Below are positions 1,823 to 15,064 of a stretch of DNA of 15,146 bases, one piece after another. Location: positions 1-15,146 of the forward strand of contig JAHFEM010000006.1 of assembly GCA_023248505.1 (NCBI GenBank), given 5' to 3'. Made by a program: the position numbers and the translations under genes. The notes beneath the pieces are model-generated. The model saw only the letters and a list, made by a program, of their open reading frames with translations, was not told the DNA's origin and ran no database searches. Numbering within the stretch: position 1 is the first letter of the stretch; each line of letters begins with the position of its first letter. Source of the stretch: Nitrospirota bacterium. GTDB lineage: Bacteria; Nitrospirota; Nitrospiria; SBBL01; Manganitrophaceae.

Positions 1823-4153
1823 TTGAATATTCAAGGGGAAAATGATATAACCGTTCAAATGAAGAAGAAGCGAAAAAACCGACGTCTCCGTATTTTCCTG
1901 GCGCTCTCCCTCCTGGTTGTTTTTTTCTCCGCCACCTATATCGGCTACCTTGATTATCAGGTCATCAAGAAATTCGAGGGCCAGCGGTGGAAACTCCCCT
2001 CCAAGATCTACTCCGCCCCGTTTGTCCTCTCGCAAGGGATCGACATCGAGAAGAGCGGACTGATCTCCCGCCTGAAACGGTTGAACTATAATCCGGTGAA
2101 GCGGCCGGTCCGAAAACCGGGAGAATACTATCTCACTGCAACCGGTTTGGAGATCCACCTCCGCGATTTTGCCTACCCCGACCGCCTCCAGCAGGGGATT
2201 CCCGTCAGCCTTTCTTTCTCCTCGGGGAAACAGATCGATCGGATCGTTGACCTCTCGCTGGCGGAAGATCTGGAGCGGCTCCCGATTGAGCCGGAGGTGA
2301 TCGGCGGATTTTACGAAGGGACCTGGGAGGAGCGGAGCTTGATCCGTTTGTCGGAAGCCCCGCCGATTCTCATCGATGCCATTATGGCGATGGAAGATCG
2401 CCGTTTCTATGAGCACGGCGGAATCGATCCGCGCGGAATCCTGCGCGCCGCCTGGGCCAATCTCCGCGCCGGCGGAATCGTCCAGGGGGGAAGCACCCTC
2501 ACGCAGCAGTTGGTGAAGAATTTCTATCTCGACAGCGATCGGACGTTGAACCGAAAGGTCAATGAGGCGATCATGTCGCTCCTCCTCGAACGTCATTACA
2601 CGAAGGAGGAGATCCTGGAAACCTACCTCAATGAAATCTACCTGGGACAAAATGGAATCATGGGGATTTACGGGATCGGACAAGGATCGTGGTTTTACTT
2701 TGGGAAGCCGCCGAACGAGATGACAATGGGCGAATCGGCGCTGCTGGCCGGCATTATCCGCTCTCCGAATACCCTCTCTCCACAGAAAAATCTTAAAAAG
2801 GCGATCCTGCGCCGCAACCTCGTCCTGGAAAGGCTCTTCTCCGAGCAGAAAATTACCCTCCGCCAATATGTTCAGGCCCGCGCCGAAACCGTGTCCGGCC
2901 GCAAGGTCAGAGAGCGGCTGAATGCCGCCCCTTATTTTGTGGATGAGATCCGCCAGCGCCTGGCGGCGGCCTATCCCGGCGATCTCCTCAACTCGGGAGG
3001 GCTTCGGATCTTCACCTCGCTCGATGTCGAGCTGCAGCGGATCGCCGAGGAGAAGCTCCGCGACGGACTCCAGATGTTGGAGCGGCAATATCCTCACCTG
3101 AAGCGGGCCGAACCGGAACGCCAGCTCCAAGGGGCGCTGGTGGCGATCGATCCGCGGAGCGGCGAAATCCGGGCCCTCGTCGGGGGCCGCAGCTACGGCA
3201 CCAGCCAATTTAATCGAGTGGTTCAAGCGCGCCGCCAGCCGGGATCGCTCTTCAAGCCGTTTGTTTATCTCGCCGCCTTCGATCAAGCCGCAAACGGGAA
3301 AGAGCCTTATACGCCGATCAGCCAAATTGAAGACGCCCCGATTACTCTGCAGGCCGGGGGCCGCGACTGGTCGCCGCAAAATTACGATCGGACCTATCTC
3401 GGGCCGGTGACGCTGCGCGCGGCCCTTGAGCGATCGCTCAATGCCGCGACCGTTCGGCTCTCGCAGGAGGTCGGCATCGAGAAGATCATCACCACCGCCC
3501 GTGCGTTGGGGGTGACCAGCCCCTTGAAGGACCTTCCTTCCCTGGCGCTGGGAACCTCGGAGGTCTCCCCGCTGGAGATCGCGGTCGCTTATGCGACGCT
3601 GGCCAATCAGGGATTCAAGCGGGAGCCGCTCTTTGTGCAAGGGGTGATTGATCCGGCCAACCTCCGCCTTGATTCACCCGATTCGGACGAGATCCCGCCG
3701 ACCGAGGTGATCTCGCCGCAGGCGGCCTTTCTGGTCACCCATCTGATGAGGGGGGTGATCGAATCGGGAACCGGTCAGGGGGTCCGAAAGCTCGGCTTCG
3801 ATCGTCCGGCCGCCGGGAAGACCGGAACCACCAGCGATGAACGCGACGCCTGGTTTGCCGGGTATACGCCGGAGCTGGTGACCGTCGTCTGGGTCGGGTT
3901 CGATCAGAACGATCCGGTGGAACTGACGGGAGCGCAGGCGGCGCTGCCGATCTGGACCGGCTTTATGAAGGAAGCGCTCGCCGCGACGCCGCCGACCGAC
4001 TTCACCCCGCCCGCCGGGATCGTCTTCAAGCGGGTGAATGAAAACGGGAACGTCTGCCGGGATGGGAAAGAAGAGGCGTTCATCGAGGGGACCGAGCCGA
4101 CGCAATCATGTGAAGGGGGAGTTTTTAAATGGTTCGAACACCTTTTCTTTTAA
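1823..4153 (+). CDS. mrcB: Bifunctional class A penicillin-binding protein, PBP1b type
   Basis: This 776-residue membrane-anchored enzyme polymerises lipid II glycan strands (family GT51) and cross-links the peptides in the periplasm. After a basic cytoplasmic tail, a membrane segment spans about residues 23-43. Residues 57-142 match the UB2H domain of PBP1b, the docking site for outer-membrane activators such as LpoB in enterobacteria. The glycosyltransferase shows EDRRFYEHGG with catalytic Glu191, GGSTLTQQL at 222-230, and RKVNEAIMSLLLE with Glu248. The transpeptidase shows SLFK (Ser475, Lys478), SLN (538-540) and KTG (666-668), so both active sites look intact. The TTG at 1823 has AAGGA ten bases upstream. 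ATG 1859 is the alternative start but lacks a ribosome binding site; both keep the anchor. The 3' end overlaps the next gene by 25 bp. No LpoB-like activator is visible. Confidence 0.95.
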   Translation: MNIQGENDITVQMKKKRKNRRLRIFLALSLLVVFFSATYIGYLDYQVIKKFEGQRWKLPSKIYSAPFVLSQGIDIEKSGLISRLKRLNYNPVKRPVRKPGEYYLTATGLEIHLRDFAYPDRLQQGIPVSLSFSSGKQIDRIVDLSLAEDLERLPIEPEVIGGFYEGTWEERSLIRLSEAPPILIDAIMAMEDRRFYEHGGIDPRGILRAAWANLRAGGIVQGGSTLTQQLVKNFYLDSDRTLNRKVNEAIMSLLLERHYTKEEILETYLNEIYLGQNGIMGIYGIGQGSWFYFGKPPNEMTMGESALLAGIIRSPNTLSPQKNLKKAILRRNLVLERLFSEQKITLRQYVQARAETVSGRKVRERLNAAPYFVDEIRQRLAAAYPGDLLNSGGLRIFTSLDVELQRIAEEKLRDGLQMLERQYPHLKRAEPERQLQGALVAIDPRSGEIRALVGGRSYGTSQFNRVVQARRQPGSLFKPFVYLAAFDQAANGKEPYTPISQIEDAPITLQAGGRDWSPQNYDRTYLGPVTLRAALERSLNAATVRLSQEVGIEKIITTARALGVTSPLKDLPSLALGTSEVSPLEIAVAYATLANQGFKREPLFVQGVIDPANLRLDSPDSDEIPPTEVISPQAAFLVTHLMRGVIESGTGQGVRKLGFDRPAAGKTGTTSDERDAWFAGYTPELVTVVWVGFDQNDPVELTGAQAALPIWTGFMKEALAATPPTDFTPPAGIVFKRVNENGNVCRDGKEEAFIEGTEPTQSCEGGVFKWFEHLFF

Positions 4154-5271
4154 TCGCCCTTCTGGCGAGCCTGTTCGCCGGCTGCCGGAAAGGGAACCCG
4201 GGGGCTTCCGAGATCGTCATCGGCGTCGCCGGCCCGATGACCGGCGATCAGAGCAAGCTCGGAGGAGACGTCGAGCGGGGCACCCGCTTGGCGGTCGAGG
4301 AGTGGAATGCGCGCGGCGGGATCAACGGAAAGAAGATCCTTCTTTCGGTCGGCGACGATCAGCACGACCCGAAGCAGGCCGTTTCGGTGGCAAACAAGCT
4401 GGTGAACTCCGGTATCGTCGGGGTGGTCGGTCATTTCAATTCGAGCGCCTCGATCCCGGCCTCGGCCGTCTACAACGGCGCCGGCGTCCCCATGATCACC
4501 CCCGCCTCGACCAATCCGCGATTGACCGACCAGGGATTCTGGAACGTCTTCCGCGTCTGCGGCCGGGATGATCAGCAGGGAAAGGTCGCGGCCGATTTGG
4601 TTGGAAAACAGCTCAAGCTAAAACGGGTCGCCATCCTCCACGACAAAACAACTTACGGCCAAGGATTGGCCGAGGAGTTCCGAAAGAGTCTCGCGGCCTA
4701 CCCGGAGGTCACGGTTGTCTCATTCGATGGGATCACGCAGGGAGATAAAGATTTCCGAGGCATTCTCACCTCGCTCAAAGGAAACAAGCCCGAGCTCTTC
4801 TTCTTCGGCGGGGTCTTCCCCGAGGGAGGACAGCTCGCCAAGCAGGCGAAGGAGGTCGGCCTCACCGCCCCGATGCTGAGCGGCGACGGGGTGATCGATC
4901 CGAAATTCATCGAGATCGCGGGAGCGGCGGCCGAAGGAACCTATCTCACCTTCACCGCCGACCCGGAGAAGATGCCCCAGGCAAAAGGTTTTCTGGAGAA
5001 GTACAAGGCCAAATACGGAAACGAGCTGGCCCCCTATGCGATCTATTCCTACGATTCCGCCAACATCCTCCTCACCTCTCTCGCAGAGGCCGAGAAGGAA
5101 GGCAAGCTCAAAGACGGGAAGCGGGTGGCGGAGATCGTGCGGAACGTCAAGTACGACGGCGCCCTCGGCCACATCGAATTCGACGCGAAGGGAGATGTTA
5201 AAAAATCGCCCTACATCGTCTGGATCACCCAAAACGGGAAGTTCGAGGAGTTCTGGAAGCCGAAGGAATAG
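4129..5271 (+). CDS. livK: ABC transporter substrate-binding lipoprotein, branched-chain amino acid (LivK/LivJ) family
   Basis: This 380-residue periplasmic-binding protein of the Leu/Ile/Val family captures substrate for an ABC importer made with LivH/LivM permeases. The N terminus is a lipoprotein signal, with a hydrophobic run and FAGC placing the lipidated cysteine at residue 19; Phe at the -3 position is less usual than Leu. The mature part begins IVIGVAGPMTGDQSKLGGD and continues with AVEEWNARGGINGKK, both typical of the family fold. The start ATG lies inside the end of the penicillin-binding protein gene, with AAGGGGGAG 8 nt upstream. The cognate permeases lie about 1.8 kb downstream, separated by three foreign-looking genes. 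Substrate cannot be told from sequence: leucine, other amino acids, amides or aromatic acids are all used by relatives. Confidence 0.9.
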   Translation: MVRTPFLLIALLASLFAGCRKGNPGASEIVIGVAGPMTGDQSKLGGDVERGTRLAVEEWNARGGINGKKILLSVGDDQHDPKQAVSVANKLVNSGIVGVVGHFNSSASIPASAVYNGAGVPMITPASTNPRLTDQGFWNVFRVCGRDDQQGKVAADLVGKQLKLKRVAILHDKTTYGQGLAEEFRKSLAAYPEVTVVSFDGITQGDKDFRGILTSLKGNKPELFFFGGVFPEGGQLAKQAKEVGLTAPMLSGDGVIDPKFIEIAGAAAEGTYLTFTADPEKMPQAKGFLEKYKAKYGNELAPYAIYSYDSANILLTSLAEAEKEGKLKDGKRVAEIVRNVKYDGALGHIEFDAKGDVKKSPYIVWITQNGKFEEFWKPKE

Positions 5272-5274
5272 GCT

Positions 5275-5607
5275 GTGGTCAACGATACAGGTTTCCGAAA
5301 ATTGATCAATGAAGTTATCGGAAAAATTGTAACGGAGTATCGGCCTGAGAAAATCATCCTCTTCGGCTCCTACGCCCACGGCACTCCGAACCGGGACAGC
5401 GACATCGATCTCTTGATCATCAAGAAGACAACAGAGCGGCCGATTGATCGAAGGGTCGCCGTCTCCAAGATCGTTTCGGACCCAAAGCTCCGGATCCCTA
5501 TCGAATCCATCGTCTTGACTCCCGAAGAAATCAAAACCCGTCAAGAAATCGGGGATCAATTCATTGAAGAAATTTCGACGAGAGGTGAACTCCTTTATGC
5601 CGCGTAA
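5275..5607 (+). CDS. MNT-domain minimal nucleotidyltransferase (MntA-like antitoxin)
   Basis: This is a 110-residue member of the minimal nucleotidyltransferase family. In characterised HEPN/MNT toxin-antitoxin pairs, the MNT protein AMPylates the HEPN ribonuclease and so silences it. The motif GSYAHGTPNRDSDIDLLI (residues 31-48) fits GSX10DXD exactly, with Gly31, Ser32, Asp43 and Asp45, so the catalytic metal site looks intact. The start is GTG, 3 nt after the stop of the binding-protein gene, with AAGGA 7 nt upstream. The 3' end overlaps the ATG of the HEPN gene by 11 nt, the usual arrangement for such pairs. The partner is broken, so this is probably an orphan antitoxin or may act on a HEPN protein encoded elsewhere. 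Confidence 0.88.
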   Translation: MVNDTGFRKLINEVIGKIVTEYRPEKIILFGSYAHGTPNRDSDIDLLIIKKTTERPIDRRVAVSKIVSDPKLRIPIESIVLTPEEIKTRQEIGDQFIEEISTRGELLYAA

Positions 5608-6051
5608 AGAATCTCTCTACCCGAAGGATTGGTTCCGAATCGGAGAGAAAGAGATTCAGCGGGCAGAAAATCTGCTCCGTTTCGAAGATCTGGAGGGAGC
5701 AGGATTCAACATTGAAGCTCCCCGCCGCAAGCAGCGGGGAATCTTCGACCCGATGCGACGCGCGTGCGTGTTCAACAAGCAATTGAAAAATTCCTCAAAG
5801 GTTATCTCCTTTCCAAAGGATGGTCGTTAAGAAGAATTCACCGACTCGATTCACTTCTCAATGATGCGGTTGTATACGGACCTACTTTAGAAATGTTTCG
5901 ACCGGCATGCCTGAAGATGAGTGAGTATTATGTAGAAGAACGTTATCCCTCAACAGTTCATTCTGAACTTCGCCAAGAGGAAATTACTGAATCGCTGGAA
6001 ATCGCGAAAAAGATAATTGAAAAAATTAAATTACTTACCTACGTTGACTGA
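5597..6051 (+). pseudogene. HEPN-domain protein disrupted by a 59-bp palindromic insertion
   Basis: Two frames together give one HEPN domain (PF05168 type). The first, from ATG 5597 (AGAGGTG about 9 nt upstream), reads WFRIGEKEIQRAENLLRF and on to GAGFNI. The second resumes with QQAIEKFLKGYLLSKGW, then RRIHRLDSLL and SEYYVEERYPS, and ends at 6051. Removing bases 5714-5772 joins them in frame as GAGFNI-QQAIEKFLKG, the usual family sequence. The insertion length (59 bp) is not a multiple of three, so the first frame runs on through it and stops at 5830 with a scrambled tail. In MNT/HEPN pairs the HEPN protein is the toxin, an RNase. This copy should be inactive unless a downstream start (GTG 5764) makes a C-terminal fragment. 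HEPN identity is firm; toxin activity of the ancestor is inferred from the pairing. Confidence 0.85.
5714..5772. repeat. Palindromic REP-like or MITE-like element inserted in the HEPN gene
   Basis: The inserted 59 bp begin with a nested inverted repeat. GAAG (5714-5717) pairs with CTTC (5743-5746), and CCCCGC (5720-5725) pairs with GCGGGG (5734-5739) around the loop CGCAAGCA. The remaining 26 bp (5747-5772) are G+C-rich without an obvious ORF. The insertion point has a 2-bp ambiguity (TT on both sides). It is the only copy I see in the window. The sequence is reminiscent of short dispersed palindromes mobilised by REP-associated transposases, but no transposase is present here. Confidence 0.7.
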
Positions 6052-6229
6052 AATACATCAGCTACATACCGCTGAAACACCTTTATCGATGATGAACATG
6101 ACAAAAGAAACATTGACTGGAAAGTGATAGGCAAGCCAGGATGCAAAGGAACTTTACGCAGTACGATATTTTGGAACGGCTTATGGTAAAGAACGGATAT
6201 CGCCTGTCAGACAGGAAAACGTCACCCTG

Positions 6230-7069
6230 ATGGATATCCTTTTCACCCCCACCGGCTTGCGCGGCCTGACGAGCTTCGGCGGCCTGTTCCTCTTCATGGC
6301 GATCGAGAACCTCTTCCCCTTTCGGAAGCGGGTCGATCCGATCCTTCGCCACTACGGTGTCAATCTGTTGATCGCAGGGGGAAATGCGGCGATTCTCGGC
6401 ATCGCCTTCGGCGGGGCGGTCGTCGCCTATGCCCGGCTTCTTGAAACGCGCGGGATCGGGCTGCTCCATCTCTTTCCGGTTTCGCTCGGTTGGAACATCG
6501 TTCTCTCGCTGCTCTTTCTCGACTTCGTGACCTACCTATGGCACATGGCCTACCATCGTGCGCCGCTCCTCTGGCGGCTTCACCGCGTCCACCATACCGA
6601 CCGCGACCTGGATGTCACGTCGGCTTCGCGATTCCACCTGAGCGAGATTGGTTTATCGACTCTCCTCCGGTTGGGGGTGATGACCCTCTGGGGACCGGCG
6701 TGGATCTCGGTGATGATCTTCGAGGGGACTCTGCTCGCAGCGGCGCAATTTCAGCACAGCAATTTTAAAATTCCGGACCCGTTCTAGTCGGCGATCCGTT
6801 GGGTTTTCGTCACCCCCGACATGCATCGGGTCCATCACTCGGATCTTCAGGCGGAGACCCACTCAAACTATTCGACAATTTTTTCGTTTTGGGATCGGTC
6901 GATCGGGACCTATCGGACGGCGCCCCAGGAACGGCTCGTGATTGGGCTGAACGATTATCCCCGTCCGGAAGAGCGCACTTTCTTAAAGCTGATGGCCCTC
7001 CCCTTCGGGCGGCCCTGCAACAAGACCGTGACCGAAAGCGCACCGCCCCTTTCGAGGGAGAGGATTTAA
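6230..7069 (+). pseudogene. Sterol desaturase / fatty acid hydroxylase family gene with an in-frame amber stop
   Basis: Members of this family (PF04116) are integral-membrane di-iron enzymes that hydroxylate or desaturate lipids, with iron held by histidine clusters. The frame from ATG 6230 shows hydrophobic segments, then HMAYH (residues 105-109), HRVHH (118-122) and RFHLSE around His136. A TAG at 6785-6787 (codon 186) interrupts it. The same frame then continues without another stop through SAIRWVFVTPDMHRVHHSD, which contains the essential third histidine box (199-203), to a TAA at 7067-7069. The 185-residue product lacks that box and should not be active. The stop lies between IPDPF and SAIRWV, where relatives read straight through, so a point nonsense mutation or a base-call error is the simplest reading. 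The start has only a weak AGGAAA 11 nt upstream. It sits between livK and livH, and its end is 4 nt before livH. Confidence 0.82.
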
Positions 7070-7073
7070 CGGC

Positions 7074-7976
<903 letters not shown>

Positions 7977-8091
7977 TGGGAGAACCGGCCGGTCCAAGTC
8001 CGGACAAGCAAGGTGTGAGGCATCGAGGAGGGCGCGGCGTTTCCTTCGCCTCCACCGCACCGGCCCCGCATAAAAAAAGAAGGAGACTCGG

Positions 8092-9222
8092 TTGTCACTC
8101 TCCAAGCTGACCCATTCGGCGTTGATCGGACTCTGGCTGGGACTGCTCGCCCTTCCCTTCATGGGCTGGACCGGCGCCGGGAAGTTGGCCGCCACCCTGG
8201 CCGCCGGAGGAATGATCTGGCGCCTGCTGATCCAGTGGAGCGCGACCGAGCGATTTCAGGAGCCGATCGCACGCCTGCATCGGCGGGCGCGGGAGATCGG
8301 CGCTTCGCTGGCGCAGATCAATCGGACGGCGCGCCTCGTTGGAGGAGCGGCCCTCTTCCTGATCCTTCCCCTTTTCCTGAACAATTACTACATCGACATT
8401 CTCAGCCTGGCGGGACTCTATGCGCTTCTGGCCGCGGGGCTGAACATCACCGTCGGTTCCGCCGGCCTCCTCGATCTCGGCTATGCCGCCTTCTACGGGG
8501 TGGGCGCCTATGTCTATGCTCTCCTCTCGACCGGCATCGGCCTCTCTTTCTGGCTCGGTCTTCCGCTCGGCGGGGCGATCGCCGCCGCGTTCGGCGTGAT
8601 CCTGGGGGTGATCACCCTCCGGCTCCGGGGCGACTATTTGGCGATCGTGACACTCGGCTTCGTCCAGATCGCCTATCTGGTTTTCAACAATTGGGACGCC
8701 GTGACGAACGGCCCGAACGGGATCTTAAACATCGGCCGGCCGGTCTTGCTCGGGTTCACCCTTCACCAACCGATCCACTTTTATTATCTCGTCCTTGTTC
8801 TGCTCTTTTTGATCGCGGCGGCCATTGATCGATTGACCCGCTCTCAGATCGGCCGGGCCTGGATCGCCATCCGGGAAGACGAGCTCGCCGCCTCGGCGAT
8901 GGGAATCGACACCACCCAGATGAAGGTCCTTGCCTTCGCATTGGGGGCCGGGATCGCCGGCGTGGCGGGGGTCTTCTTCGCCGCCAAATACACCTTCGTT
9001 TCACCGGAGAGTTTTACCTTTCTCGAATCGGTCCGGGTCCTCTCGATGGTGGTGCTGGGCGGCATGGGAAGCCTCCCCGGCGCGATTCTCGGCGCCCTTC
9101 TCCTGACCGTTCTGCCGGAGCTTCTCCGAGAACTGGCAAGTTATCGAATGCTGATTTTCGGCGCCGCGCTGGTCATCATGATGGTCTTCCGGCCGCAGGG
9201 TCTCCTCGGGAGGCGGCATTGA
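8092..9222 (+). CDS. livM: Branched-chain amino acid ABC transporter permease LivM
   Basis: This is the second permease of the Liv-type importer, 376 residues. It starts at TTG 8092, supported by AGGAG 6 nt upstream. The first 90 residues hold two extra hydrophobic segments and a basic linker, as in longer LivM proteins. The core follows with YALLAAGLNITVGSAGLLDL, then RLRGDYLAIVTLGFVQI and NGPNGI. The coupling-loop region is GRAWIAIREDELAASAMGID, and the C-terminal VVLGGMGSLPGAILGA and FRPQGLLGRRH are typical endings. The stop overlaps the following cyclase remnant by 4 bp. In most operons the ATPase genes livG and livF come next; here they do not, so the transporter must use ATPases encoded elsewhere or be non-functional. 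Confidence 0.95.
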   Translation: MSLSKLTHSALIGLWLGLLALPFMGWTGAGKLAATLAAGGMIWRLLIQWSATERFQEPIARLHRRAREIGASLAQINRTARLVGGAALFLILPLFLNNYYIDILSLAGLYALLAAGLNITVGSAGLLDLGYAAFYGVGAYVYALLSTGIGLSFWLGLPLGGAIAAAFGVILGVITLRLRGDYLAIVTLGFVQIAYLVFNNWDAVTNGPNGILNIGRPVLLGFTLHQPIHFYYLVLVLLFLIAAAIDRLTRSQIGRAWIAIREDELAASAMGIDTTQMKVLAFALGAGIAGVAGVFFAAKYTFVSPESFTFLESVRVLSMVVLGGMGSLPGAILGALLLTVLPELLRELASYRMLIFGAALVIMMVFRPQGLLGRRH

Positions 9223-12719: not shown

Positions 12720-12747
12720 TTGACAAAATATCATTTTTTGGTATCTT
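12720..12747 (+). promoter_or_regulatory. Sigma70-type promoter driving the riboswitch transcript
   Basis: A perfect TTGACA (12720-12725) is followed after 16 nt by TATCTT (12742-12747), in an A+T-rich stretch unlike its surroundings. The predicted start near 12754 lies about 15 nt before the aptamer, as expected for a riboswitch leader. Confidence 0.65.
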
Positions 12748-12768: not shown

Positions 12769-12867
12769 TCCATGATAAAGGCAAACCAGCCGAAAGGCTG
12801 GGGCGCAAAGCTTCAAGGCTTCGCCGGGCGATCGAAATCGCCGGCATGCCGGTTGGGCTGCCCTGGA
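12769..12867 (+). promoter_or_regulatory. Class I cyclic-di-GMP riboswitch aptamer (GEMM-I)
   Basis: The leader RNA carries the signatures of the GEMM-I aptamer, which binds the second messenger cyclic di-GMP. GGCAAACC (12780-12787) leads into a perfect hairpin CCAGCC-GAAA-GGCTGG (12786-12801) whose GAAA tetraloop normally docks on the second arm. The invariant CGCAAAGC follows at 12804-12811. A second arm has GCC/GGC (12823-12825 with 12843-12845) stacked on GGCGAT/ATCGCC (12827-12832 with 12837-12842). The closing 3' strand ends TGCC (12859-12862), pairing with GGCA (12780-12783), and TGGA (12864-12867) can pair with TCCA (12769-12772). The order and the conserved loops fit well; a covariance-model score was not available to me. 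Confidence 0.88.
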
Positions 12868-12907
12868 TAAATAAGCGTCCTCTATCCTTATTTATATGCG
12901 CAGCCCA
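12854..12907 (+). promoter_or_regulatory. Predicted antiterminator stem of the riboswitch expression platform
   Basis: TGGGCTGC (12854-12861), part of the aptamer's closing 3' side, is exactly complementary over 8 nt to GCAGCCCA (12900-12907), the 5' side of the terminator. Inside this pair, ATAAATAAG (12867-12875) is complementary over 9 nt to CTTATTTAT (12887-12895). Together they form one long hairpin that excludes both the closed aptamer and the terminator. This predicts that cyclic di-GMP binding frees the terminator and switches the gene off. The complementarities are seen directly; the direction of switching is inferred. Confidence 0.7.
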
Positions 12908-12934
12908 TTTCTCAATTCGAAGTGGGCTTTTTTA
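12902..12934 (+). terminator. Intrinsic terminator controlled by the riboswitch
   Basis: AGCCCATTTC (12902-12911) pairs with GAAGTGGGCT (12919-12928), ten base pairs with one G-U, around a 7-nt loop. The run TTTTTTATTT follows directly. It lies 54 bp upstream of the lipoprotein ATG, with no gene between, so it must act as a leader attenuator and not as the end of a gene. Confidence 0.88.
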
Positions 12935-12988
12935 TTTCCCGGATCATCCGAAAAACAAATGATAAATACAAACAGGAGGCAGAAAAAC

Positions 12989-15064
12989 ATGAAAAGGCTA
13001 CTTGCAGTGGCTTCGGCTTCATTGATATTGAGCCTTGGCCTGACGGCGTGCGGTGGGGGCGGCGGCGGTGGAAGTTCAAGCGGAGGGGGAGGCGGTCTTC
13101 AGTCGGCCGGTTTCGAGGTGCCGACCGAAATCTCGGCGGTGCCGACGAACCTCTCGGGAACCGTCGGAGGCGTGACCAAACCGGGCCTCAAATCGAAACT
13201 CTCCGCATTAAAACGGGCGGCGACCGACCCCACCACCGATTACAGCAAGGCACAGACGGTGAAGTTCGTGAACGAGCACACGCTGGAGCAGTTCGACATC
13301 ATCGAACAGGTTCTCTCGGCACTGGCCCAGACGAACTACGCCGACGAAGCCAACGTCAATCAAGGTCCATATAAAGCGATGGTTGCCTTCCAGGATGAGA
13401 AGAACGGCATCGAGACGAAATCGCTCGAGCCGTGGGTGGTTGATTCGGCGATGATTGAAGAAGATGGCAAGGATGTCAATCGCGTCCGGCTTTGGATCGA
13501 GGAGGGAGATGGAGGAGTCACCCGTTTGCTCAAGGGTGAATTCAAAATTTATCAGTCGGCGACACAGCGCGAGGACGGCTCCTACAGCGACTACGGCGTC
13601 TGGACGTTGAACGTCAAGTTCGACGACACAGCGTCACAGTTCTTCGCCGCATCTGCCGAGATCGATGCAAACGGCCGTGCAGTCATCAAAATTAATGAAA
13701 ACAGCTCGGACGGGCCAGGAGGCGGTAATCATCAAATGAAGGCGGTCATGAACCGGTCGGAGACAGACGGCTTCGGGAAGGTGATGTTCCCCGACTTTGA
13801 GAGCTGCACTCAGCCCGATTGTACGCCGGACTCGGTGGAAGCGAAATACGCCTACGACACGACCCATCTCGCCATCCAAAAAGCGGCGGATGCCGTCCAG
13901 TATAAAGACCGGACGTCCATCACCGAGATGACCCACCGATATGGAATGTTCGACAGCGCAACCGGACAGGATGTCATGAAGACCAAGTCGTTCGGCTTCC
14001 CGGTGGAGTTCACCGACACCGAGGGGCACCGCCAGTTCGCCTACTACGGCGCTTGGCAAGGCCGCCATCAGCTCTGGGCCGGCAACGGAGCGGTTCCAGC
14101 CGGAACCACCGTCAAACGTCAAGACCGGAACAATCAGGAGACCGCGGAGACCTACACCGTCGCAGAACAGTTTAATGGGACCTTCACCAAGCGAACGCTG
14201 GTGCCGGGCACCCTTAGCGACATCCAAGGGATCGCCGTCGAGACGTGGATCAACAAACACTATAACCTGCTCCATGATGGATCGACGTGGCAGTCCTGCG
14301 AAGGATGGATCGACTTCGGTCAAAACCCTCCATTCTGCACCAGCGGCTCATTCGCTACTTTCGCTGATTTCGACGCGCTGGTGGTGAGCGAAAACGACCG
14401 CAAGTTCGTCAACATCGGTCATTGGGATAACAACACCCAAAGTCAAAAGAATTATGTTTATCTCAACGCCGACCCGGGTCTGAGCGGTTACAACGGCTCA
14501 GGGTTCTATGAGGCACAACCCCCCCAGCCCGGCACCCCGGGAGGCTTCACACCGATCAGCCCCGCCGTGAAGCTTGCTGAAACCATCGGCGCCGATCTCT
14601 TTGTCGATATCGGCGGCTCCATCTATATCTCCTACACCGGAGAATTCAGCGGGCCGACCACCACGACAGGCTGGGTGCAAAAAGAGTTGACCGGCTTCGA
14701 TGAGAGCACTTGGACGCCGACGTTCGGTTCCGGAGATGTGGCCTTTACCCCGGATCCGGGGCGTGAGTACTACATCAACAGCCATGGGGCCAACTTCATC
14801 GTGCGCCGTAAAGACAACAGCACGATGGCCGCCAGCGTCTATGATGTGATGATCGAGCTGCAGAGCGCCGCCAACCCGATCAACGCCGCATCGATGCTCC
14901 CTTCAGGGACCGCTTATCTCCGTTCCCCCTGGAGGCAGGAAGTGCGCTACTCCTTCGTAACAAGCGCCGGCGCAAACTTCCTGACGTTGCTGTATCTCAC
15001 CGATGACCCCAATACCCCGGATGTGGATGAGAGCGCCACGCCGACGCCGGTCACCACCGGCTAA
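12989..15064 (+). CDS. Large lipoprotein of unknown function under riboswitch control; stop codon probably premature
   Basis: This exported lipoprotein has 691 residues as encoded. The ATG at 12989 is chosen over upstream in-frame codons because AGGAGG lies at 12974-12979, 9 nt before it, and a clean lipoprotein signal follows (LILSLGLTAC, lipidated Cys21). The upstream part of the frame is terminator sequence. A Gly/Ser linker occupies residues 22-36. The rest is rich in Asp, Gly, Thr and aromatic residues with few lysine clusters and looks like an extended beta-rich surface or periplasmic protein. Cysteines near ESCTQPDCTP and between QSCEGW and PPFC might form disulfides. I do not recognise a family. 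After the TAA at 15062-15064 the same frame continues as WGLQAYDTNGTPNDFTDDSP and beyond to the window end. This suggests TAC or TAT was the ancestral codon and that the protein was longer. Transcription is predicted to fall when cyclic di-GMP is high. Confidence 0.8.
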   Translation: MKRLLAVASASLILSLGLTACGGGGGGGSSSGGGGGLQSAGFEVPTEISAVPTNLSGTVGGVTKPGLKSKLSALKRAATDPTTDYSKAQTVKFVNEHTLEQFDIIEQVLSALAQTNYADEANVNQGPYKAMVAFQDEKNGIETKSLEPWVVDSAMIEEDGKDVNRVRLWIEEGDGGVTRLLKGEFKIYQSATQREDGSYSDYGVWTLNVKFDDTASQFFAASAEIDANGRAVIKINENSSDGPGGGNHQMKAVMNRSETDGFGKVMFPDFESCTQPDCTPDSVEAKYAYDTTHLAIQKAADAVQYKDRTSITEMTHRYGMFDSATGQDVMKTKSFGFPVEFTDTEGHRQFAYYGAWQGRHQLWAGNGAVPAGTTVKRQDRNNQETAETYTVAEQFNGTFTKRTLVPGTLSDIQGIAVETWINKHYNLLHDGSTWQSCEGWIDFGQNPPFCTSGSFATFADFDALVVSENDRKFVNIGHWDNNTQSQKNYVYLNADPGLSGYNGSGFYEAQPPQPGTPGGFTPISPAVKLAETIGADLFVDIGGSIYISYTGEFSGPTTTTGWVQKELTGFDESTWTPTFGSGDVAFTPDPGREYYINSHGANFIVRRKDNSTMAASVYDVMIELQSAANPINAASMLPSGTAYLRSPWRQEVRYSFVTSAGANFLTLLYLTDDPNTPDVDESATPTPVTTG

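Follow-up and report, generated by a model that had tools for sequence, protein, structure and literature searches.

A class I cyclic di-GMP riboswitch, predicted to act as a transcriptional OFF switch, upstream of a conserved lipoprotein gene in Nitrospirota

Introduction

Upstream of a predicted lipoprotein gene that starts at position 12989 of the stretch of Nitrospirota DNA analysed here (15,146 nucleotides, referred to throughout as the window) lies a class I cyclic di-GMP (c-di-GMP) riboswitch, which very probably acts as a transcriptional OFF switch for that gene. The aptamer is of a recognised class, the pairings on which switching would depend are mutually exclusive and are conserved among related leaders, and the target gene is itself conserved. 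The element as such is a known riboswitch class made up of ordinary parts, and its pairing with the lipoprotein gene is kept across many related species. The assembly to which the window belongs, as contig C205, has a size of 2.61 Mb and is 72% complete, and the nearest named contig in GTDB is that of Candidatus Manganitrophus sp. GAC4. All features of the riboswitch and its gene are on the forward (+) strand.

The aptamer and its predicted binding pocket

An earlier note on this DNA, made from the sequence alone, had read a complete GEMM-I riboswitch at this site and proposed covariance scoring as a check, which the element passes: the Rfam model RF01051 (c-di-GMP-I) matches 12770-12865 with a score of 69.1 bits against a cut-off of 35. 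If Rfam is scanned with clan competition, the model displayed is not RF01051 but RF03167 (c-di-GMP-I-GGC), which matches 12771-12866 with 62.2 bits (E 6.4e-13; gathering cut-off 59). On the basis of both matches the aptamer is placed at 12770-12866, and in a fold of 12769-12867 the outer pairs of P1 are formed between 12769-12772 and 12864-12867. The alignment from the Rfam scan reveals the features by which members of the RF01051 family are recognised, namely a P2 capped by a GNRA tetraloop, a P3 and a three-way junction. The GEMM-I core and GAAA hairpin of the earlier note are likewise present, with the GAAA tetraloop that caps P2 at 12792-12795 and CGCAAAGC at 12804-12811. For comparison, an alignment was made of 19 of the 20 leaders in which riboswitch and gene are found together (the remaining one, from genome G026, was read by eye instead), and across these 19 the tetraloop is invariant.

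The predicted pocket that emerges from the alignment is the canonical G20/A47/C92, comprising G12780, A12807 and C12861, if these are numbered as in Vc2, which we take to place them at positions 20, 47 and 92 respectively. Position 20 is a predicted ligand contact, and G is the letter of the c-di-GMP type; the A at position 20 that characterises GEMM-Ib (cGAMP) aptamers is thus absent from the aptamer of the window. Of the 19 aligned leaders (window included), 15 have G at position 20, 3 have A and 1 has C. Position 47 is A and position 92, predicted to pair with a guanine of the ligand, is C in every one of the 19. The GGC family presumably owes its name to its bases at 20, 47 and 92, with G at 47 as its mark; in the RF03167 consensus this G follows the CGC of P2, a place taken by A in the window and throughout the 19 aligned leaders, and for this reason the element is filed here under RF01051.

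The expression platform

A sigma-70-like promoter occupies 12720-12747, with TTGACA at 12720-12725, a spacing of 16 nt, and TATCTT at 12742-12747 preceded by TG. The earlier note had correctly recognised a perfect -35 box, but had placed it within a span beginning at 12769, whereas the promoter is actually upstream of that position. An exact TTGACA was found upstream by script in 18 of 19 other leaders (a tally that includes L055, which is outside the leader alignment), and by eye in the remaining one, L049.

The further parts named in that note lie where it had put them. The 3' strand of P3 ends in TGGGCTGC (12854-12861), whose final base is C12861 and which is the exact 8-nt complement of GCAGCCCA (12900-12907), so that these two strands form the 5' and 3' sides of a candidate antiterminator; the latter strand is common to the 5' arm of the terminator. 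Between them is a nested 9-bp stem (12868-12896), formed by ATAAATAAG (12868-12876) and CTTATTTAT (12888-12896), which extends this pairing. The intrinsic terminator (12902-12934) consists of a 10-bp hairpin at 12902-12928 followed by a T tract, and is strong as had been claimed, the region 12901-12935 having a folding energy of -15.0 kcal/mol; it begins 36 nt past the aptamer match and has no overlap with the aptamer. A Shine-Dalgarno sequence, AGGAGG, is present at 12974-12979.

In the mechanism proposed, the nascent RNA would, in the ligand-free state, bring 12854-12861 and 12900-12907 together so that they enclose the nested stem, and as this pairing would precede synthesis of the 3' arm of the terminator, the polymerase would read through. 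With ligand bound, the aptamer would retain the 3' strand of P3, including C12861, the terminator arm would be left free, and transcription would end near 12930.

As to whether the antiterminator could be fortuitous, single-base shuffling of the 49 nt that follow 12850-12863 produced an exact 8-nt complement to that segment in 15 of 20,000 trials. Stronger support than these odds comes from the conserved pairing among the aligned leaders, with its changes on both strands. Of the 19, 18 (window included) retain the 8-bp antiterminator, L057 having no such arm, and 140 of 144 cells pair, a number reached by none of 10,000 arm shuffles, uncorrected for the relatedness of the leaders; when each of the 10 arm combinations is counted only once, and only Watson-Crick pairs are admitted, the observed value of 71 is attained by 14 of 10,000 shuffles. 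Two positions vary on both strands. The pair involving 12859 is C-G in 11 of the 18 leaders and T-A in 7, while that involving 12860 is G-C in 8, A-T in 6 and G-T in 3, and is unpaired in 1; since the aptamer model leaves 12860 unpaired, variation there speaks for the antiterminator itself.

Stepwise folding gives a picture of how these structures may succeed one another. Directly after the 3' strand of the antiterminator has been made, all 18 leaders have the antiterminator as their fold of lowest energy, and once the leader is complete the terminator takes that place in 13 of them, the antiterminator persisting in the other 5. For the window, folded in 3-base steps, the antiterminator is dominant from 12906 to 12924 but not from 12927 onwards. 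The full-length unliganded folds have energies of -68.0 kcal/mol (terminator) and -66.0 kcal/mol (antiterminator), and given that the terminator fold is thus lower by 2.0 kcal/mol even when no ligand is bound, switching must be kinetic.

The platform is absent from two relatives that possess both aptamer and gene, namely G030 (leader L057) and G026 (as judged by eye). Separately, it may be mentioned that the ortholog leaders L043, L044, L052 and L057 have C or A at position 20, a possible change of ligand at one locus; the first three of these retain an OFF-type platform, and L057 is the leader just mentioned as having none.

Polarity and ligand

The closest parallel to this arrangement is the Cd1 riboswitch of Clostridioides difficile, a proven class I c-di-GMP OFF switch, in which the antiterminator pairs the ligand-binding C87 and its formation abolishes ligand binding (PMC9262584). 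Common to Cd1 and the window are the aptamer class, an antiterminator in which the 3' strand of the aptamer pairs with sequence further downstream and so sequesters the ligand-pairing C, and a terminator able to coexist with the aptamer. In the window, alignment and folding both point to the feature typical of an OFF switch of this kind, an antiterminator that uses the aptamer 3' strand and is mutually exclusive with aptamer and terminator alike. The two differ in that Cd1 controls flagellar genes, whereas the window element precedes a lipoprotein gene, and in that, for the window, binding and termination are predictions. Because the antiterminator takes up C12861, the predicted ligand-pairing base, as happens with the corresponding C in the proven case of Cd1, we infer that the window element also has OFF polarity, and the physiological role suggested for it is to be read at the same strength. 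The predicted OFF logic is supported by its agreement with the conservation of the antiterminator, the stepwise folding and the Cd1 layout.

As regards the ligand, aptamers that have been tested show an association of G at position 20 with c-di-GMP and of A with c-AMP-GMP (PMC9481103), and G11 of Cd1 corresponds to G20 of Vc2 (PMC9262584). The G at position 20 of the window's aptamer accordingly suggests c-di-GMP as the probable ligand. It is conceivable, but improbable, that an element with the aptamer and OFF mechanism just described responds instead to 3',3'-cGAMP, or to both dinucleotides. This has to be considered because the genus seems to possess a cGAMP pathway: A is found at position 20 in 41 of 59 loci of the genus (by script), and both this genome and that of another member (G005) encode a GAF-GGDEF protein with Ser at what is, judging by the motif, the putative Hypr-defining position. 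Some ortholog leaders also have A (3) or C (1) at position 20, which is in any case a selectivity factor rather than a hard filter (PMC9262584). Against this, the window and 14 of the 18 other aligned leaders carry G at position 20.

It is very improbable that the polarity should be the reverse, with ligand binding favouring readthrough. All three other copies in the same genome do look ON-type, with terminators overlapping the aptamer, and the Geobacter cGAMP riboswitches are ON switches (PMC6456294, PMC9262584). In particular, the pilM riboswitch of Geobacter metallireducens, the aptamer fold of which is highly homologous to that of the window, senses cGAMP and is ON because its terminator itself captures the ligand-pairing C (PMC9262584). 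In the window, by contrast, it is the antiterminator that captures this C; the strand shared with the aptamer belongs to the antiterminator, and the terminator stands 36 nt beyond the aptamer match, clear of any overlap. Least probable of all is that the element belongs to the c-di-GMP-I-GGC variant class, possibly with altered ligand specificity, since although RF03167 is the best of its clan in the Rfam scan and its gathering score is exceeded (62.2 vs 59), A12807 and its equivalents in all 19 aligned leaders stand where that model has G, and the RF01051 score is 69.1 bits.

Distribution of the riboswitch and the gene

The riboswitch was sought, together with its gene, in 58 genomes, comprising the window's own and 57 relatives. 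RF03167 has a match in 35 of these and the downstream lipoprotein in 24, and comparison of coordinates shows gene and riboswitch sharing a contig, with the riboswitch immediately upstream, in at least 20 of the 24 gene-bearing genomes, the window's own included. Among the others, G002 has the lipoprotein gene and a riboswitch of the window type (L066) at the ends of two contigs, and in G019 a GEMM-like leader can be discerned by eye, with no RF03167 match among the matches listed, though one may exist; the genome scan of G006 and G007, which have the gene, gave no RF03167 match at all.

A model (R1) built from the 19 aligned leaders finds the riboswitch in 14 of 52 named lipoprotein loci, partly from the same genomes as the 58. 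All 14 belong to the group of 16 loci whose titles are of the Nitrospirota type, and one of the two misses of this type, L207, begins inside the gene and so is without upstream sequence. In the other 38 of the 52 loci Rfam at gathering scores detects no riboswitch. A weak R1 match at L172 (15.9 bits, E 0.14) was left out of the count. With the riboswitch found in 14 of the 52 loci, the lipoprotein family is wider than its riboswitch.

The downstream lipoprotein gene

The regulated gene (12989-15064) encodes a predicted lipoprotein, with an LTAC lipobox identified by eye, that belongs to no family found in a Pfam search; in searches of NCBIfam and of PDB sequences nothing passed the threshold, the matches having E values of 0.07 or worse. 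Of 7,995 candidates that were scored, 371 qualify as homologs at E <= 0.001, and most of the best 120 of the 371 are about 830-960 residues long. The nearest named relative among the matches listed, P0002 of Candidatus Manganitrophus sp. SA1 (86% identity), has 897 residues, of which 1-718 align with the window protein. An AlphaFold2 model of P0002 has a mean pLDDT of 80.9, and a Foldseek search of the PDB with this model returned nothing at E <= 0.001, the best hit being at 0.035. The in-frame stop of the window gene, at 15062-15064, is 82 bases before the contig end. Another contig of the same genome (C145, locus L221) overlaps the end of the gene by about 235 bases, differing at a few positions, and its reading frame continues past this point, so the stop in the window may be strain variation or an assembly error.

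Elsewhere in the window, at 4129-9222, there are genes for a binding protein of the branched-chain amino acid type and for two permeases, and between these transport genes, at 5275-6051, a pair of small ORFs that by eye are nucleotidyltransferase-like and HEPN-like.

A possible two-signal layout in the genus

Six genomes of the genus contain 59 RF01051 loci (4, 30 and 25 in three scans), in which a script read position 20 as A in 41 and G in 14, with 4 undecided. Where a terminator was found, its 5' arm lies inside the end of the aptamer in 26 of 27 A20 copies, an ON-type layout like that of pilM, L085 being the sole A20 copy with a detached terminator, and 12 of 13 G20 copies have detached terminators; the exception, L104, looks like a case of a wrongly chosen hairpin. 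The four undecided copies, which are A by eye, have detached terminators. In 14 A20 copies and one G20 copy (L066, at a contig end) no terminator was found in the stretch examined. The window's own genome has three further GEMM-I copies, at G000:C83:195-494 (L002 and L004) and G000:C383:3322-3406 (L003), all of which have A at position 20 and a terminator that overlaps the aptamer; two of the three stand in tandem.

Tandems of a G20 copy followed within 80 nt by an A20 copy occur five times, in four of the six genomes: L069/L081 (G002), L074/L087 (G003), L095/L105 (G005), and L102/L096 and L104/L111 (both G004). In four of these tandems the A20 half is one of the copies for which no terminator was found. 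After all five there is an ORF with several fibronectin-III (fn3) matches, these ORFs being cut at the locus ends.

GGDEF domain matches number 22 in the window's genome and 33 in G005, taken as 22 and 30 loci respectively, and among those loci whose motif is readable a Ser-type (Hypr-like) one was seen in 1 of 17 for the former and 2 of 25 for the latter. The proteins concerned, all identified from the motif alone as Ser-type GAF-GGDEF proteins, are L117 (G000:C150) and L146 and L164 (both G005), and the Ser read in each is at what we take to be the position that defines Hypr (cGAMP-making) enzymes. An active-site Ser marks Hypr enzymes (PMC8835794).

A tentative reading, which we regard as possible but on balance doubtful, is that in Ca. 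Manganitrophus the G20 copies, that of the window among them, are c-di-GMP OFF switches with detached terminators, the A20 copies are cGAMP ON switches with overlapping ones, and the tandems gate fn3-protein genes, acting as gates that would require both the presence of cGAMP and the absence of c-di-GMP. The near-complete division of terminators between A20 (26 of 27 overlapping) and G20 copies (12 of 13 detached), the five tandems and the Ser-type GGDEF proteins would all be consistent with this. Counting against it are L085, the four undecided copies with detached terminators, the 14 A20 copies and one G20 copy for which none was found, and L044 and L052, A20 ortholog leaders from outside the genus that retain the OFF-type platform. 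Within this two-signal reading, any antiterminator in the G20 copies of tandems is putative only. As an absolute rule, “A20 = ON, G20 = OFF” is ruled out, since A20 copies with detached terminators exist.

Precedents for parts of such a layout are known. Desulfobacca acetoxidans has both G-type (c-di-GMP-I) and A-type (c-AMP-GMP) riboswitches in one species, but its copies cluster with AdoCbl riboswitches, whereas the genus of the window pairs G-type with A-type (PMC9481103). Tandem pairs of cGAMP-type copies occur in G. sulfurreducens (PMC6456294), and the tables available from a review of tandem riboswitches list no c-di-GMP-I/c-AMP-GMP pair (PMC9481103).

Significance

In the literature searched, including the accessible portions of PMC9040806 and PMC12342949, no c-di-GMP riboswitch is described from the manganese-oxidising lineage; guanidine riboswitches have been sought in Ca. 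Manganitrophus noduliformans, and none was found (PMC12342949). The element in the window, with c-di-GMP as its predicted ligand, would tie this second messenger to a conserved, uncharacterised lipoprotein in many Nitrospirota, including the manganese-oxidising lineage, and the switch could act as a c-di-GMP reporter for these bacteria. The layout seen across the genus is the more novel lead, and offers a test case for two-signal riboswitch logic.
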